Below are positions 30,387-45,501 of a DNA stretch of 64,000 nucleotides, one piece after another. Source of the DNA: Salinigranum marinum (GTDB lineage: Archaea; Halobacteriota; Halobacteria; Halobacteriales; Haloferacaceae); contig NZ_CP100461.1 in NCBI RefSeq assembly GCF_024228675.1, positions 2,229,398 to 2,293,397 on the forward strand. Direction: 5' to 3'. A program made the position numbers and the translations under genes. How positions within the stretch are numbered: the first letter of the stretch is position 1; each line of letters begins with the position of its first letter. A model generated the notes under the pieces. That model ran no database searches. It worked only from the letters and a program-made list of their open reading frames with translations, and was not told the DNA's origin.

Positions 30387-30787
30387 CCCTCGCTCCGAAG
30401 GCCCAACGAGCGCGGTCACTGCTCGCGCCACCGTCCTCGGCCGACGGTAGATTCGACGATCCAAATCAGCCAGTTGACATCCTCCCGCGCCTGAAGACGC
30501 GGAAATCCCACGGAACCGCACCGCTGAGTTGGGATATTACGGTTCGCGGTTAACGACCTGTTCTCGTGGGGCGAAACAGCCCTCACTACGGTCGAACAGG
30601 TGAACCGCTGGCTGTGCCAACCAGCCGTTATCCCTATCACCACCATCCGTGGCGAGACTCGGGAGTACCTTTTGCCGAATATTCTCCGCACCATTCACGT
30701 CCGCGTTCGCAACGGTGTCGCACTCCTCGCACACGTACAGTCCACGTTCCACACGCTGTTTGTCATCGGTGTGACCACATGCTGAAC

Positions 30788-40632: not shown

Positions 40633-41565
40633 TCACCCGGTGACCTTCGTCTTTTCCTCTGAGTTCTGACACTGATTCGAGCGGGGTTCGACGGGCTTCA
40701 CTCGTAGCTCTCCGAAGCCGTACTTCGAGTGACTGCCGACCCGGAGGATACCGCTCTTCGCGGTTTCCACCGGGCGGTCGCCCTCGTAGGCGACCACCTG
40801 TCCGTGGTCCACCGTCTGGAGCTTGTACACCTCCCGCTGTTCCAGTACCTTCTCCTCGCGTTCGCGGAGATCGCGGCGGTCCTCTTTCCACCACCACGGG
40901 ACGTCCTGGTCGTGGGCGTTCGGGTACTCCGACTCCAGCACGAACGGCGTCACGAGTTCGAGGATGAACGCCTCACCGTCATCGAGACGCGAGTAGTCCA
41001 ACGCCCCCAGGTCTACGACTTGCGTGTCTTTCAGCCGCGTGATACCGTAGCCGTAGTTGCGCTTTCCGCCGAACTGGAGGCCGTCCAGGGCGCTCTCGTC
41101 GAGCGGGAGGACGTCGTCGCGGTCGGCGTGGAGGTACGCGTTGATGTACCACTTCGTCGTCTGCTGTTGCTTCCGCGCGTCGTCGGGCTTCCCCATGATG
41201 GTCTCGTGGGACAGCGCCGGGTGGCCGCCCTGGACGCGGATATCGTGGGTGTTCAGCGCGTCTCGCGGCCGGGAATCGAGGAGCCACGAGTGCGACGCCT
41301 GCCGCATCAGGAACAGGTCGTCGTAGGACTCCACGTCCGGGAGGCCGCTCCCGAGGTACGGCCGGATGCCGCTCTGCGAGTGCTCCTCGGGGAACGTCCC
41401 GAACTGGCCGGGCACGAAGACGCCGTGACTCGCGTTCAGGTGGCGGTGGACGTCGTGCGGGAGCTGCTGACCAAGCGCGTGCATGATGGCGTTCCCCGAA
41501 ACGTAGTATGGGTGACCGATGTAATCCATCTCCAGCTCCCAATGGACTTGCTGGATGCGCGTCAT
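40633..41565 (-). CDS. RAMP protein, Cas5/Csm4/Csf3-like
   Basis: A 310-residue protein, last gene of a five-gene operon; its ATG overlaps the stop of the gene before it (ATGA). It has two RAMP-type glycine-rich loops: FGGKRNYGYG mid-protein and VGSHSKYGFGELRV near the C-terminus. This fits two ferredoxin-like domains, as in Cas5, Csm4, Csf3 or Cas6. The N-terminal half (SGNAIMHALGQQLPHDVHRH, RQASHSWLLDSRPRD) resembles no family I can name. In a Cas effector this position would be the 5'-handle-binding Cas5 subunit. No CRISPR array is in the window. The last ~20 residues are polar and probably disordered. Confidence 0.72.
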   Translation of the reverse strand: MTRIQQVHWELEMDYIGHPYYVSGNAIMHALGQQLPHDVHRHLNASHGVFVPGQFGTFPEEHSQSGIRPYLGSGLPDVESYDDLFLMRQASHSWLLDSRPRDALNTHDIRVQGGHPALSHETIMGKPDDARKQQQTTKWYINAYLHADRDDVLPLDESALDGLQFGGKRNYGYGITRLKDTQVVDLGALDYSRLDDGEAFILELVTPFVLESEYPNAHDQDVPWWWKEDRRDLREREEKVLEQREVYKLQTVDHGQVVAYEGDRPVETAKSGILRVGSHSKYGFGELRVKPVEPRSNQCQNSEEKTKVTG

Positions 41566-42341: not shown

Positions 42342-43205
42342 CTACGGTCCCTCCGCGATACGGTCTCCCAGCGCCTCCACGAACGCCGGGCGGTACTCCT
42401 CGGTCCACTGGTCGTCCTTTTCGTCCATCTTGTTCGTGTTGCCCTTTCCGCGGTCGAAGACGCGCTTCAACTCGCGCTCGTTGTAGAGCGGGTTGATGAG
42501 GTGGCAATCGACGATCCCCGCGCCGAAGTTGCGAGCGCCACCGAGCTGGTGCATGAAGTCCGTCTTGTGAGCATCGAGGAAGTCGATGCCCTCGGCCAGA
42601 AGGCCGACGAACTCCGGTTTTACCTCTCGGAAGGAGAGGTGCCAGCAACCGTCCAGATTGGCGACGGCGTCAACCTCGGTGTTCCGAAGCGGCTCCCGGT
42701 TGTCTTCCTCGTTCCGGGAAACGACGTTCCGGTTCAGCCGACGGTAGTGACCCTCAGCCTGCCCACGCGTGTAGTCCACGCTGGAGCGGACGGGATTGAA
42801 CTTGATCGGCCGCCGCATCACCTTCCCGGGGACGCCACCGAAGCCGCCGAAGAGGTCGAAGACCACGCAACCGTCGTCTTCTTTCGGGTCGTCGGTGCAC
42901 GCGCCCTTCTCGTGGTAGCCGTCGTCGAGGTCGCGCTCGTAGACGTCCTCCTTCATGAAGTTCGCGTTGGCTTCCCCGGGATGACAGGCGGTGCCGTCGT
43001 ACTCGTGGACGACTTCCTCCATGCCGTGGCGAAGCCACCCGGAGAGGGGGAAGGCGGGGATGATGCCGCCGATCTGGTTCTGCGGGTCGTCGTCCTCGTA
43101 GTTGCCGTTCGAGGCGTGGTGTCTGTCGGTCATGATGCTATCCCCGACCACCAGTAGGTCGGTCTGAATCCGCACGAACACGTCGCGGTCGATGTCTTCA
43201 ATCAT
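42342..43205 (-). CDS. RAMP protein, Cas7/Csm3/Csf2-like
   Basis: A 287-residue protein with the hallmarks of Cas7-type backbone subunits. IPAFPLSGWLRHGMEEV corresponds to the IPGSSLKGKLR motif of Csm3/Csf2, VVFDLFGGFGGVPGKVMRRP to the LFG-x-GxP segment, and LGGARNFGAGIVDCHL is the glycine-rich loop. The start, RDVFVRIQTDLLVVGDSI, fits the first strand of the RRM-like fold. The segment ~85-115 has Cys and His (TACHPGE, KGACTDD) that might bind metal. Many copies would coat an RNA in a Cas complex. It overlaps the preceding gene by 8 bases. Confidence 0.75.
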   Translation of the reverse strand: MIEDIDRDVFVRIQTDLLVVGDSIMTDRHHASNGNYEDDDPQNQIGGIIPAFPLSGWLRHGMEEVVHEYDGTACHPGEANANFMKEDVYERDLDDGYHEKGACTDDPKEDDGCVVFDLFGGFGGVPGKVMRRPIKFNPVRSSVDYTRGQAEGHYRRLNRNVVSRNEEDNREPLRNTEVDAVANLDGCWHLSFREVKPEFVGLLAEGIDFLDAHKTDFMHQLGGARNFGAGIVDCHLINPLYNERELKRVFDRGKGNTNKMDEKDDQWTEEYRPAFVEALGDRIAEGP

Positions 43206-43788
43206 GTTTGGTGTCGCGGTAAGTCGCTACCCAGAGTGCCCGCTCGGCGATTCGAACCCCGGCGCACACGTTTTCCCCGCGCGGCCTGCCGACGATCTCC
43301 AGCTGGGCTGGCGACCGTCGCCGGTGGTCGGCACCCTTGTGTTCGACCTGCGAGAGGCCTTCTTCGAGGTTCGAGCGGAGCGACACGAGGTCGTCGTCTT
43401 CCAGTACGTCCTCCTCTTCGGTGTCGTCCTCGGCGTCCGACTCGTCTGTGTCGTCACCGAGTCGCTGGCGATCGCGTTCCTCGATCTCGGCCTGCTGTTC
43501 GTCGGTGAGTTCTCCCCATGTCGCGCCCGTGTCCCACGGGTTCCAGCCGAACAGCGCCATCACTTCCTCAAGCCGCTCTTCGACCTGCTCCGTGTAGAAC
43601 CGGGCTTGCTCGGTGTCGCGCTTCTCGGGCGTCTCGCCGCGCTTCAAGACGATCTGGATGGACGCGGTCAGTTCGGCGAGTCGGGCGACGTCACTCCGGG
43701 TGGACTCGCCGGGGTGCCGGAGAGCTTCCACGAGGTGGTCACGAGCGAGGGATTCAGCCTTCTCGGGATCGACATCCTCGCCGCTCAT
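43198..43788 (-). CDS. Acidic helical protein in RAMP operon (Cas11-like position)
   Basis: A 196-residue protein. Residues ~1-105 are largely helical (SLARDHLVEALRHPGE, ARLAELTASIQIVLKRG, ARFYTEQVEERLEEVMALFG). A run of Asp/Glu (~110-140) separates them from a basic C-terminal part (HKGADHRRRSPAQLEIVG). Small helical proteins at this place in type I, III and IV operons are Cas11 subunits, but similarity is not demonstrated. Its ATG overlaps the zinc-ribbon gene stop (ATGA), and its end overlaps the Cas7-like gene. Confidence 0.7.
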   Translation of the reverse strand: MSGEDVDPEKAESLARDHLVEALRHPGESTRSDVARLAELTASIQIVLKRGETPEKRDTEQARFYTEQVEERLEEVMALFGWNPWDTGATWGELTDEQQAEIEERDRQRLGDDTDESDAEDDTEEEDVLEDDDLVSLRSNLEEGLSQVEHKGADHRRRSPAQLEIVGRPRGENVCAGVRIAERALWVATYRDTKHD

Positions 43789-43943
43789 CGGTAGTCACCT
43801 AAGAAATCCTTGCGGCCGGAGATGTAGCAGTCCGCGCACGGGAACCCGTCGTCGAACTTCGCGCACTCGTCGCAGTTGTCTTCAGTGGTCGGTTCGATCG
43901 TCGTGCCAGAGGGTTCAAATTCGGCCAGGACGGATGTCTTCAT
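43785..43943 (-). CDS. 52-residue zinc-ribbon protein
   Basis: The first gene of the RAMP operon encodes 52 residues. Two CxxC pairs (C24-x2-C27 and C36-x2-C39; CDECAKFDDGFPCADC) make a four-Cys zinc ribbon. It ends SGRKDFLGDYR. The stop overlaps the ATG of the next gene (ATGA), so translation is coupled and the small ORF is very probably real. Type IV systems begin with Csf1, which also has a Cys4 zinc finger, but Csf1 is several times larger, so the parallel is only suggestive. Confidence 0.72.
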   Translation of the reverse strand: MKTSVLAEFEPSGTTIEPTTEDNCDECAKFDDGFPCADCYISGRKDFLGDYR

Positions 43944-44124
43944 GGGTTTTTGGCCTCAGAAGCCCGCCCCGAGTGTTCCAAGCACTCGGCGTTTCCTACG
44001 ACGGTCCTGGCCCGAGGGGCTGAGCTTCCTTCGCACCTTCTGCTACACAGCATACCGCATTAATTGTTGTGCCTCCTGCCCCTGAGCAGAAGGTTGAAGG
44101 GGGATATCTGCAACTTAGAAAGTA
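43944..44124. promoter_or_regulatory. Divergent promoter region with hairpin
   Basis: This gap separates the RAMP operon from the divergent winged-helix gene. CCGAGTG and CACTCGG (43969-43989) make a 7-bp stem with a 7-base loop, 26-46 bases before the zinc-ribbon ATG, where the operon promoter should lie. No strong TATA box faces the operon; GCATTAATTGT (about 44057) is the only AT-rich core. The winged-helix protein is the obvious candidate to bind here. Confidence 0.45.
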
Positions 44125-44355
44125 ATGGACGAAGACCGCGAAAGGAACGAAGGCGGGCGGTTCGAGCCCGAACACACCGATGAGGAGGTGCTCGATGCGG
44201 TGCAAAAACATGAGCCCGCGGGCACAAAAGAGGTCGCCGACGAACTTGGAATCGCACGCCAGAGCGCGGACTATCGGCTTCGACGTCTTCTGGATGAAGG
44301 TCGGGTTTCGAAGAAGAAAGTCGGAAATTCTCTGGTCTGGTCTGCTGAGGAATGA
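44125..44355 (+). CDS. Winged-helix DNA-binding protein
   Basis: A 76-residue protein made of a single winged helix: DEEVLDAVQKHEPAGTKEVA, then DELGIARQSADYRLRRLLDE, then GRVSKKKVGNSLVW. It resembles MarR/ArsR-type minimal HTH proteins. Transcribed away from the RAMP operon, it is a likely local regulator. Its TGA overlaps the ATG of the next ORF (ATGA), so the two are coupled. Confidence 0.85.
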   Translation: MDEDRERNEGGRFEPEHTDEEVLDAVQKHEPAGTKEVADELGIARQSADYRLRRLLDEGRVSKKKVGNSLVWSAEE

Positions 44356-45501
44356 CGGACGACGGGTCGCTCTTCGACGATGACGGCGAAGGGGTGACCA
44401 ACGTTCCCGACGACGACCAGGACGAAGAGGCCGCTGACCAACTCGAGTGTGCGACGAACCTGGCGCGGACATCCGATTCTTCGGTCTACAACTCGCCGGA
44501 GCCCGAGACGGTGATGACGCTGAACGACTGGTAGAACCTCGGGATCGAGGGACAGCGGTCCGCAATCTGCGCAACGGAGACGACCTCCCTGAGGCCGTCG
44601 GGAACTTCCGTCTTCACCCGTATTACCCCTCGAAGAACGTCTTGGACCAGTGGAATGGCTACACAGACAGCCTGGACATGATGCGCGGGCACCTCTACAA
44701 TCAACTGCACGAGTCTTCCCAGACACGCATCGGGGACCGAATTCAGGGGCAAGCGGCACTTCGTGAGAAGCTTCGCGTCGAGTCGGTGAGCGCTTCCACG
44801 CTCAGGCGCATCGAGGAAGAGGACTACATGGACGACGACGTGTCGGGGTACGACGCCGCCGAGGTGTTGAACGACGCGGCCGAGGCCGCCGTCCGCCAAC
44901 TCCACGAGGACGGCGTCGAAGTGGAGGACCTCCGCGAGCCGATCTACCCGGAGACGATCTCCGATGGCGAGGGCGAGTACCCGTTGACGCTGATCCTCCG
45001 CGACCTGCGCAAAAAGACCTACCCGTATATCCGGTTCAACCGAGACAAGAGCGTCACGCACTCCAGAGACGTACTCCTGCGGGTGCTCGCCAGCGCTGCG
45101 CGGGACTACGTCCACCTCACGATGGCCGCGGACGGCCTCAAGTACAAGCACTGGTTCGACGAGGACGACATCCCGTCCCGGTGGACGCTCGGCTACCACC
45201 TGCGGAAGGTCGCCTTGGAGGGGTGGGACGAAGACGACGAGGAAGACGAAGCGGACTCCAGCGACGAGGCGGCCGGCGATGAGGCCGAAGAGCCCGGCGC
45301 GGAGGCGCGGCAATTAGGTTTCGGTGAGCTCGAGACCTCGATGAAGACGAGGTGGAGGAACTGGAGTTCCGGGGGTTCTACGAGGTGGTCGAGGACATTC
45401 GAGACATATTCCTCGCGGCGAATCAGGAGCTTCACGACATCATCGCGGAACACGGCTACTACGACGGCCAGCACGCCGTGGCGTTCGTGGCGTCGGAGTG
45501 A
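44352..45501 (+). pseudogene. Frameshifted unknown gene beside RAMP operon
   Basis: Three frames carry one continuous protein. Frame 1 (from 44352) runs MTDDGSLFDDDGEG to VMTLNDW and hits TAG at 44532. Frame 2 carries RLHPYYPSKNVLDQWNGYTD, then LREKLRVESVSASTLRRIEE, then DVLLRVLASAARDYVHLTMA, up to GFGELE near 45335. Frame 3 gives DLDEDEVEELEFRGFYEVVE, then IIAEHGYYDGQHAVAFVASE and TGA. Each junction (ACTGGTAG; CTCGAGACC) would be repaired by one extra G. Both losses are single bases in G runs, so assembly error, real mutation or frameshifting are all possible. The repaired protein would be ~380 residues, acidic and mostly helical. The family is not recognised. Confidence 0.7.

Follow-up and report, generated by a model that had tools for sequence, protein, structure and literature searches.

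A conserved leader RNA, probably a translational switch, before a small Cys4 first gene and a nuclease-less HRAMP-type operon in Salinigranum marinum

The 64,000-nucleotide stretch of Salinigranum marinum analysed here (contig NZ_CP100461.1, positions 2,229,398 to 2,293,397; hereafter the window) carries a minus-strand RAMP operon headed by a very small gene, ZR52, with two CxxC pairs. We propose that ZR52 opens, as its first gene, a leader-controlled cassette placed before a nuclease-less HRAMP operon, that the leader is a translational switch, and that ZR52 is an accessory zinc-binding microprotein and not an HRAMP subunit. We regard this account as probable.

Results

A folded leader ends at the start codon of a small Cys4 gene

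ZR52 (43785..43943, minus strand; MKTSVLAEFEPSGTTIEPTTEDNCDECAKFDDGFPCADCYISGRKDFLGDYR) has 52 codons running 43943→43785 and encodes a 52-aa Cys4 protein with the pairs CDEC and CADC. Its TGA overlaps the ATG of the next gene, P196, in an ATGA at 43785-43788, and the minus-strand order continues with a Cas7-like gene, P259 and a Cas5/Cmr3-like gene. A sequence-only reading had noted this open reading frame (ORF), its two Cys pairs, its overlap and its place at the head of a RAMP operon, all of which hold: the ATG is conserved, and the four cysteines and one proline are invariant across eight relatives. The pairwise dN/dS over 45-52 codons was 0.20-0.73; these are rough values. Intact versions of 45-52 aa with all cysteines kept occur in several other genera, including Halomarina and Halorientalis. 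ZR52 is the sole copy in the 4.9 Mb genome and its relatives are all in Halobacteria; a betaproteobacterial match (locus L228) spans 24 residues, has no Cys and no leader, and was judged to be chance, and a search of viral contigs returned no relative.

When upstream DNA was compared between loci, a large part of the similarity turned out to precede the ORF. Iterated nhmmer searches defined an element of about 115 nucleotides (nt), found upstream in 37 of 81 oriented loci and ending at the first ATG, a boundary that recurs in dozens of loci and in the window coincides with the ATG of ZR52. This type I leader lies at 43941..44056 on the minus strand (44056→43941; model R1, 78.4 bits). It contains segment A, the 5' strand of stem P1 (44019..44029, GGAAGCUCAGC), the hairpin P3 (43969..43989, CCGAGUG-CUUGGAA-CACUCGG), segment B (43958..43968, GGCGGGCUUCU) and segment C directly before the ATG (43944..43951, AAAAACCC), all on the same strand. 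The best Rfam match had E=0.61, to a miRNA family, and was put down to chance; no family covers the leader, which is apparently an undescribed folded RNA conserved in front of these operons.

Stems P1, P2 and P3 are supported by both of the alignments used, A1 (32 leader copies) and A2 (78 copies, model-derived). On A2, 92.1% of the cells in these stems are paired, and 189 cells carry double changes, compared with 60±9 after shuffling, while slid controls reach at most 45% pairing. Segment B, the 3' strand of P1, is complementary also to C, the bases just before the ATG. This B:C helix is 89.5% paired on A1, and its compensatory changes are clearest in L099 (GGTTGTC/GACAACC-ATG), L120 (TGGTCTTC/GAAGACCA-ATG) and L102 (GGTTCTGTG/CACAGAACC-ATG). 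An alignment-free test, in which partners were swapped among 60 leader copies of less than 75% identity, gave the same picture. Own A:B partners pair at -15.1 kcal/mol and swapped ones at -10.3 (0/10,000), own B:C partners at -9.7 and swapped ones at -7.4 (0/10,000); in the A:C control, own partners were not better (1,419/10,000). B therefore has two co-varying partners, of which C would cover the initiation region. Since the B:C pairing co-varies too, the comparison suggests that the leader is a translational switch.

Most of the remaining loci closely related to the window carry a different leader of the same plan, type II (GAAGCGCGG…CCGCGCTTCG…CGAAGC-ATG). In its P1 and P3, pairing is 94% and double changes number 40, as opposed to 16±2.5 after shuffling; its B:C helix is 95.6% paired, with 12 double changes against 3.1±1.3 and 0/10,000 in the swap test. 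The type II model, R2, also picks up some type I copies in the same place, and therefore both types may belong to one superfamily.

The leader is widespread and usually travels with a divergent regulator

Type I leaders were found in 242 of 391 Halobacteria genomes (about 60%, E≤0.1) and R2 matches in 133 of 272 (E≤0.01); a phylum scan, with a small sample of other classes and strict filters, found none outside Halobacteria. A type I copy lies on the same strand within 2 kb upstream of 52 of the 57 classic HRAMP cas7 genes. Among the fetched loci, a leader precedes 43 of 54 window-clade loci (13 type I, 30 type II), and a type I leader 21 of 23 classic ones. The association is not confined to HRAMP: 63 of 150 strong type I matches precede cas7 and 87 do not. 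Beyond HRAMP, the leader precedes genes for SWIM proteins, some of them with a comparable Cys4 tail at their end, as well as further small genes; in most cases a divergent winged-helix regulator, or a small regulator of another kind, is present too. Two loci, L203 and L210, each carry three leader copies on a single contig stretch, at least some of them before SWIM-type genes.

In the window, the divergent regulator is a winged-helix protein (HTH_24; 44125..44355, plus strand) of the kind that usually accompanies the leader. It is adjoined by a frameshifted, decayed transposase gene (44352..45480, approximate limits, plus strand). A 105-bit leader copy on plasmid pHSAL1 of Halobacterium salinarum, a laboratory organism, likewise has an annotated FaeA/PapI regulator and a transposase as neighbours; an intact relative of the decayed transposase on that plasmid carries DDE_Tnp_1. 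We considered whether the cassette is transposon cargo and rejected this: divergent transposases are frequent, yet leader and regulator are found also where these are missing, and likewise in classic HRAMP loci.

The first gene is exchangeable

Once first genes were read from the leader-defined ATG, a small Cys4 gene was found in 9 of 77 HRAMP loci, and a scan of the upstream regions of homologous loci likewise yielded few two-CxxC ORFs. ZR52 was accordingly rejected as a conserved HRAMP gene. The sequence-only reading would have been undone by absence of the ORF, or loss of its cysteines, in homologous operons. The ORF is indeed absent from most of them; the cysteines are conserved where it is present. 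Elsewhere the position is taken by 70-aa acidic ORFs, by Tat-signal-like proteins or, in classic loci, by a 140–210-aa Cys-containing protein (cluster C5, 20 loci). Past their N-terminus these first genes are unrelated to each other. What they have in common is a peptide of roughly the form M-S-T-S-T-x-x-G-Q-E-S behind the leader (L061-L140, L171-L210), whose tenth residue is Glu in 50 of 77. Small genes with Tat-signal-like starts (MQRRQFLAAAAALAAL) also recur as second or third cassette genes in L066, L069, L072, L090 and L173. In addition, ZR52 and P196 occur without RAMP genes in L117–L119, one of which is Natrinema gari; L117 and L118 carry a frameshifted ZR52, and the P196 of L119 is divided between frames. 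ZR52 is thus an interchangeable first gene and not a conserved part of the RAMP machinery.

Many whole-genome matches of ZR52 away from RAMP genes are C-terminal tails of SWIM proteins; CDCADLGDGFPCWECYRTGKRTLPE is one example. Like ZR52, haloarchaeal SWIM zinc-finger proteins (PF04434) have a Cys4 tail at the C-terminus, of which CDCAFLSGLPCWPCYRDG is an instance, and some of their loci carry the leader and divergent regulator too. They differ from it in the SWIM domain itself: Pfam gave no match to CxCxnCxH in ZR52, and the Cys4 tail alone is alike. ZR52 also resembles the haloarchaeal one-domain zinc-finger microproteins, which carry a pair of C(P)XCG motifs and are shorter than 70 aa (PMC11241148, PMC6562870), in its length and its two Cys pairs. 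Two such motifs were not found in ZR52, however, as its pairs, CDECA and CADCY, lack the glycine.

The operon is HRAMP-like

The idea that ZR52 is a reduced counterpart of Csf1, the Cys4 zinc-finger subunit encoded first in type IV systems, found no support: a ZR52-family profile search of PDB chains (E<=10) returned no Csf1 chain, NCBIfam and PADLOC gave no match, and the gene content agrees with HRAMP and not with type IV. Two papers (PMC8730458, PMC12669027) have passages describing HRAMP, the haloarchaeal RAMP system, as made up of diverged Cas7 and Cas5 homologues and a conserved uncharacterized protein, without an array. The window operon shares all of these. The Cas7-like protein (42342..43205, minus strand) matches PADLOC Csm3 (E=6e-4), and a Foldseek comparison of its model hit Cas7 of types VII, III and IV (E=1.5e-6, prob 1.00). 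This fold comparison was the only informative PDB result, as searching PDB sequences with profiles of the Cas7-like and Cas5-like proteins gave nothing useful. The Cas5/Cmr3-like RAMP protein (40633..41565, minus strand; 310 aa from MTRIQQ) was assigned from its sequence only (PADLOC Cmr3, E=3e-7). No CRISPR array-like direct repeats were found in 30000–64000 of the window.

The Cas7-like gene occurs in 106 of 391 Halobacteria genomes, and the trio of Cas7-like, P259 and Cas5-like genes is kept in most of the 77 fetched cas7 loci. Classic loci mostly have 53–61% Cas7 identity to the window, and in them an RNase H-like exonuclease (RNase_H_2) and an HNH nuclease (PF01844) follow cas5. The window-clade loci (68–97% identity) instead hold a compact trio without those nucleases, and no associated nuclease, HNH or PD-(D/E)xK, was seen in the window operon. 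Because the same passages treat nucleases as typical but not obligatory, the window operon is classed as HRAMP-like and nuclease-less. A leader RNA is not mentioned in those passages.

P259 (41562..42341, minus strand), the conserved uncharacterized HRAMP protein, belongs to a family that adjoins cas7 in 69 loci. Its predicted fold is confident (pLDDT 87.7) and weakly Cas10/Csm1-like: each of its 19 best PDB fold matches comes from a type III protein or complex, in most cases the Csm1/Cas10 large-subunit chain, with a best E of 0.057 (prob 0.87). Judged by this model, P259 may be a Cas10 remnant. P196 (43198..43788, minus strand), the acidic second gene, is present in 10 of 391 genomes, and no relative aligns beyond about residue 167; the final ~30 residues form a new tail. 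About 600 bp present in L068 are missing from the window, and the C-terminus of P196 reads DNA that in relatives sits just upstream of cas7; the tail was apparently made by a deletion of that size. Directly upstream of cas7 in L062, L078, L079, L086 and L089, between leader and cas7, lies a TnpB-like fragment of ~220 aa with a Cys-rich site and a RuvC-like end. Elsewhere in the window, 30483-30670 (minus strand) matches the Rfam sense overlapping transcript RNA sot0042 with 111 bits.

Discussion

In the mechanism we propose, the cassette would comprise the divergent winged-helix regulator, a promoter, the structured leader that stops at the ATG, and a first gene that varies. The transcript would begin just before A. 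Pairing of A with B would close the P1/P2/P3 domain and leave the start region free; pairing of B with C, directly before the AUG, would hide it. The balance would be shifted by a factor common to haloarchaea, and not by HRAMP itself because leaders occur without HRAMP. ZR52 would then be the first protein made with the switch open, and translation of P196 would be coupled to it through the ATGA overlap. ZR52 itself would join the shared N-terminal peptide to a SWIM-like, presumably zinc-binding Cys4 tail. A role for ZR52 as a regulatory cofactor, also raised by the sequence-only reading, is possible; the data favour the leader RNA and the divergent winged helix as the parts that regulate.

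Like riboswitch-type translational leaders, this one has a conserved structured domain with compensatory changes and an alternative helix over the start region; the mutually exclusive helix of an expression platform is represented by the co-varying B:C pairing, weak in the window's copy. It differs from them in being haloarchaeal and without an Rfam match. As of 2021, the only experimentally determined natural archaeal riboswitch was the fluoride switch of Thermococcus kodakarensis (PMC8241225). A bolder extension, which we hold tentatively and at somewhat less than even chances, is that the leader constitutes a new, widespread haloarchaeal riboswitch-like class with two sub-classes, which would sense an ion, metabolite or protein and control translation of HRAMP, SWIM and other accessory operons.

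Several observations weigh against the switch or against a SWIM-tail origin of ZR52. On A2, the B:C helix is 75% paired compared with 70% for a one-column slide, a small difference that probably stems from C slipping in the alignment. Covariation counts on model-fitted alignments are biased towards the model, a bias that the swap test lessens but does not remove. The folding energy of the window leader is unremarkable (z=-0.99), and therefore the case for an RNA rests on covariation. In this copy, moreover, B:C is weak (-6.3 kcal/mol versus -12.6 for A:B), and so it may be tuned towards the open state or be partly degenerate. Finally, the SWIM-tail ancestry of ZR52 rests on short matches.

Other explanations deserve consideration, two of which concern the protein. 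ZR52 could be what is left of a decaying SWIM-type first gene, without a function of its own, as might be read from the likeness limited to the N-terminal peptide and Cys4 tail, the lost C-terminus of the neighbouring P196 and the decayed transposase nearby. The intact versions with all cysteines in other genera and a dN/dS below 1 speak against decay, and we consider it unlikely, if still worth keeping in mind. That ZR52 genuinely belongs to the HRAMP complex, as a small subunit or cofactor functionally equivalent to Csf1, would agree with its place at the head of the operon, its coupled translation, the conservation of its cysteines, the Cys-containing first gene of classic loci and the frameshifted copies in two RAMP-less loci. 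It sits poorly with the scarcity of such genes among HRAMP loci, the occurrence of ZR52 and P196 without RAMP genes, the lack of a Csf1 match in the PDB profile search and the mutual unrelatedness of first genes beyond the shared peptide; we think it improbable.

The remaining two concern the leader. The conserved block could act as DNA, as the operator of the winged-helix regulator or a transposon end, with hairpins not used as RNA; the nearly constant divergent regulator, a palindrome beside a TATA-like box and the frequently adjoining transposases would fit. Compensatory stem changes that keep the layout, a third strand by the ATG that co-varies with B, and anchoring at the start codon instead of transposon ends make this quite unlikely. 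It is also conceivable that the leader serves HRAMP as its missing guide or scaffold RNA: the system has Cas5/Cas7-like proteins and no array, and its loci regularly carry the leader in both classic and window-clade forms. We rejected this idea because too many leader copies lack cas7, being common in genomes and loci without it, for example before SWIM genes; furthermore, each leader stops exactly at a start codon with one strand complementary to the initiation region, and no variable, spacer-like part was seen in the leaders. A guide function is thus highly improbable.

Returning to the leader-controlled cassette, its implications are threefold. In such operons, a small first gene can be a swappable passenger of a regulatory cassette and not a subunit of the complex, which calls for caution in reading these genes. 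HRAMP is a CRISPR derivative, and a leader with two exclusive, co-varying pairings before nearly all classic operons provides a handle on its expression. Should the leader prove to be a switch, it would join the very few natural RNA switches known from archaea.
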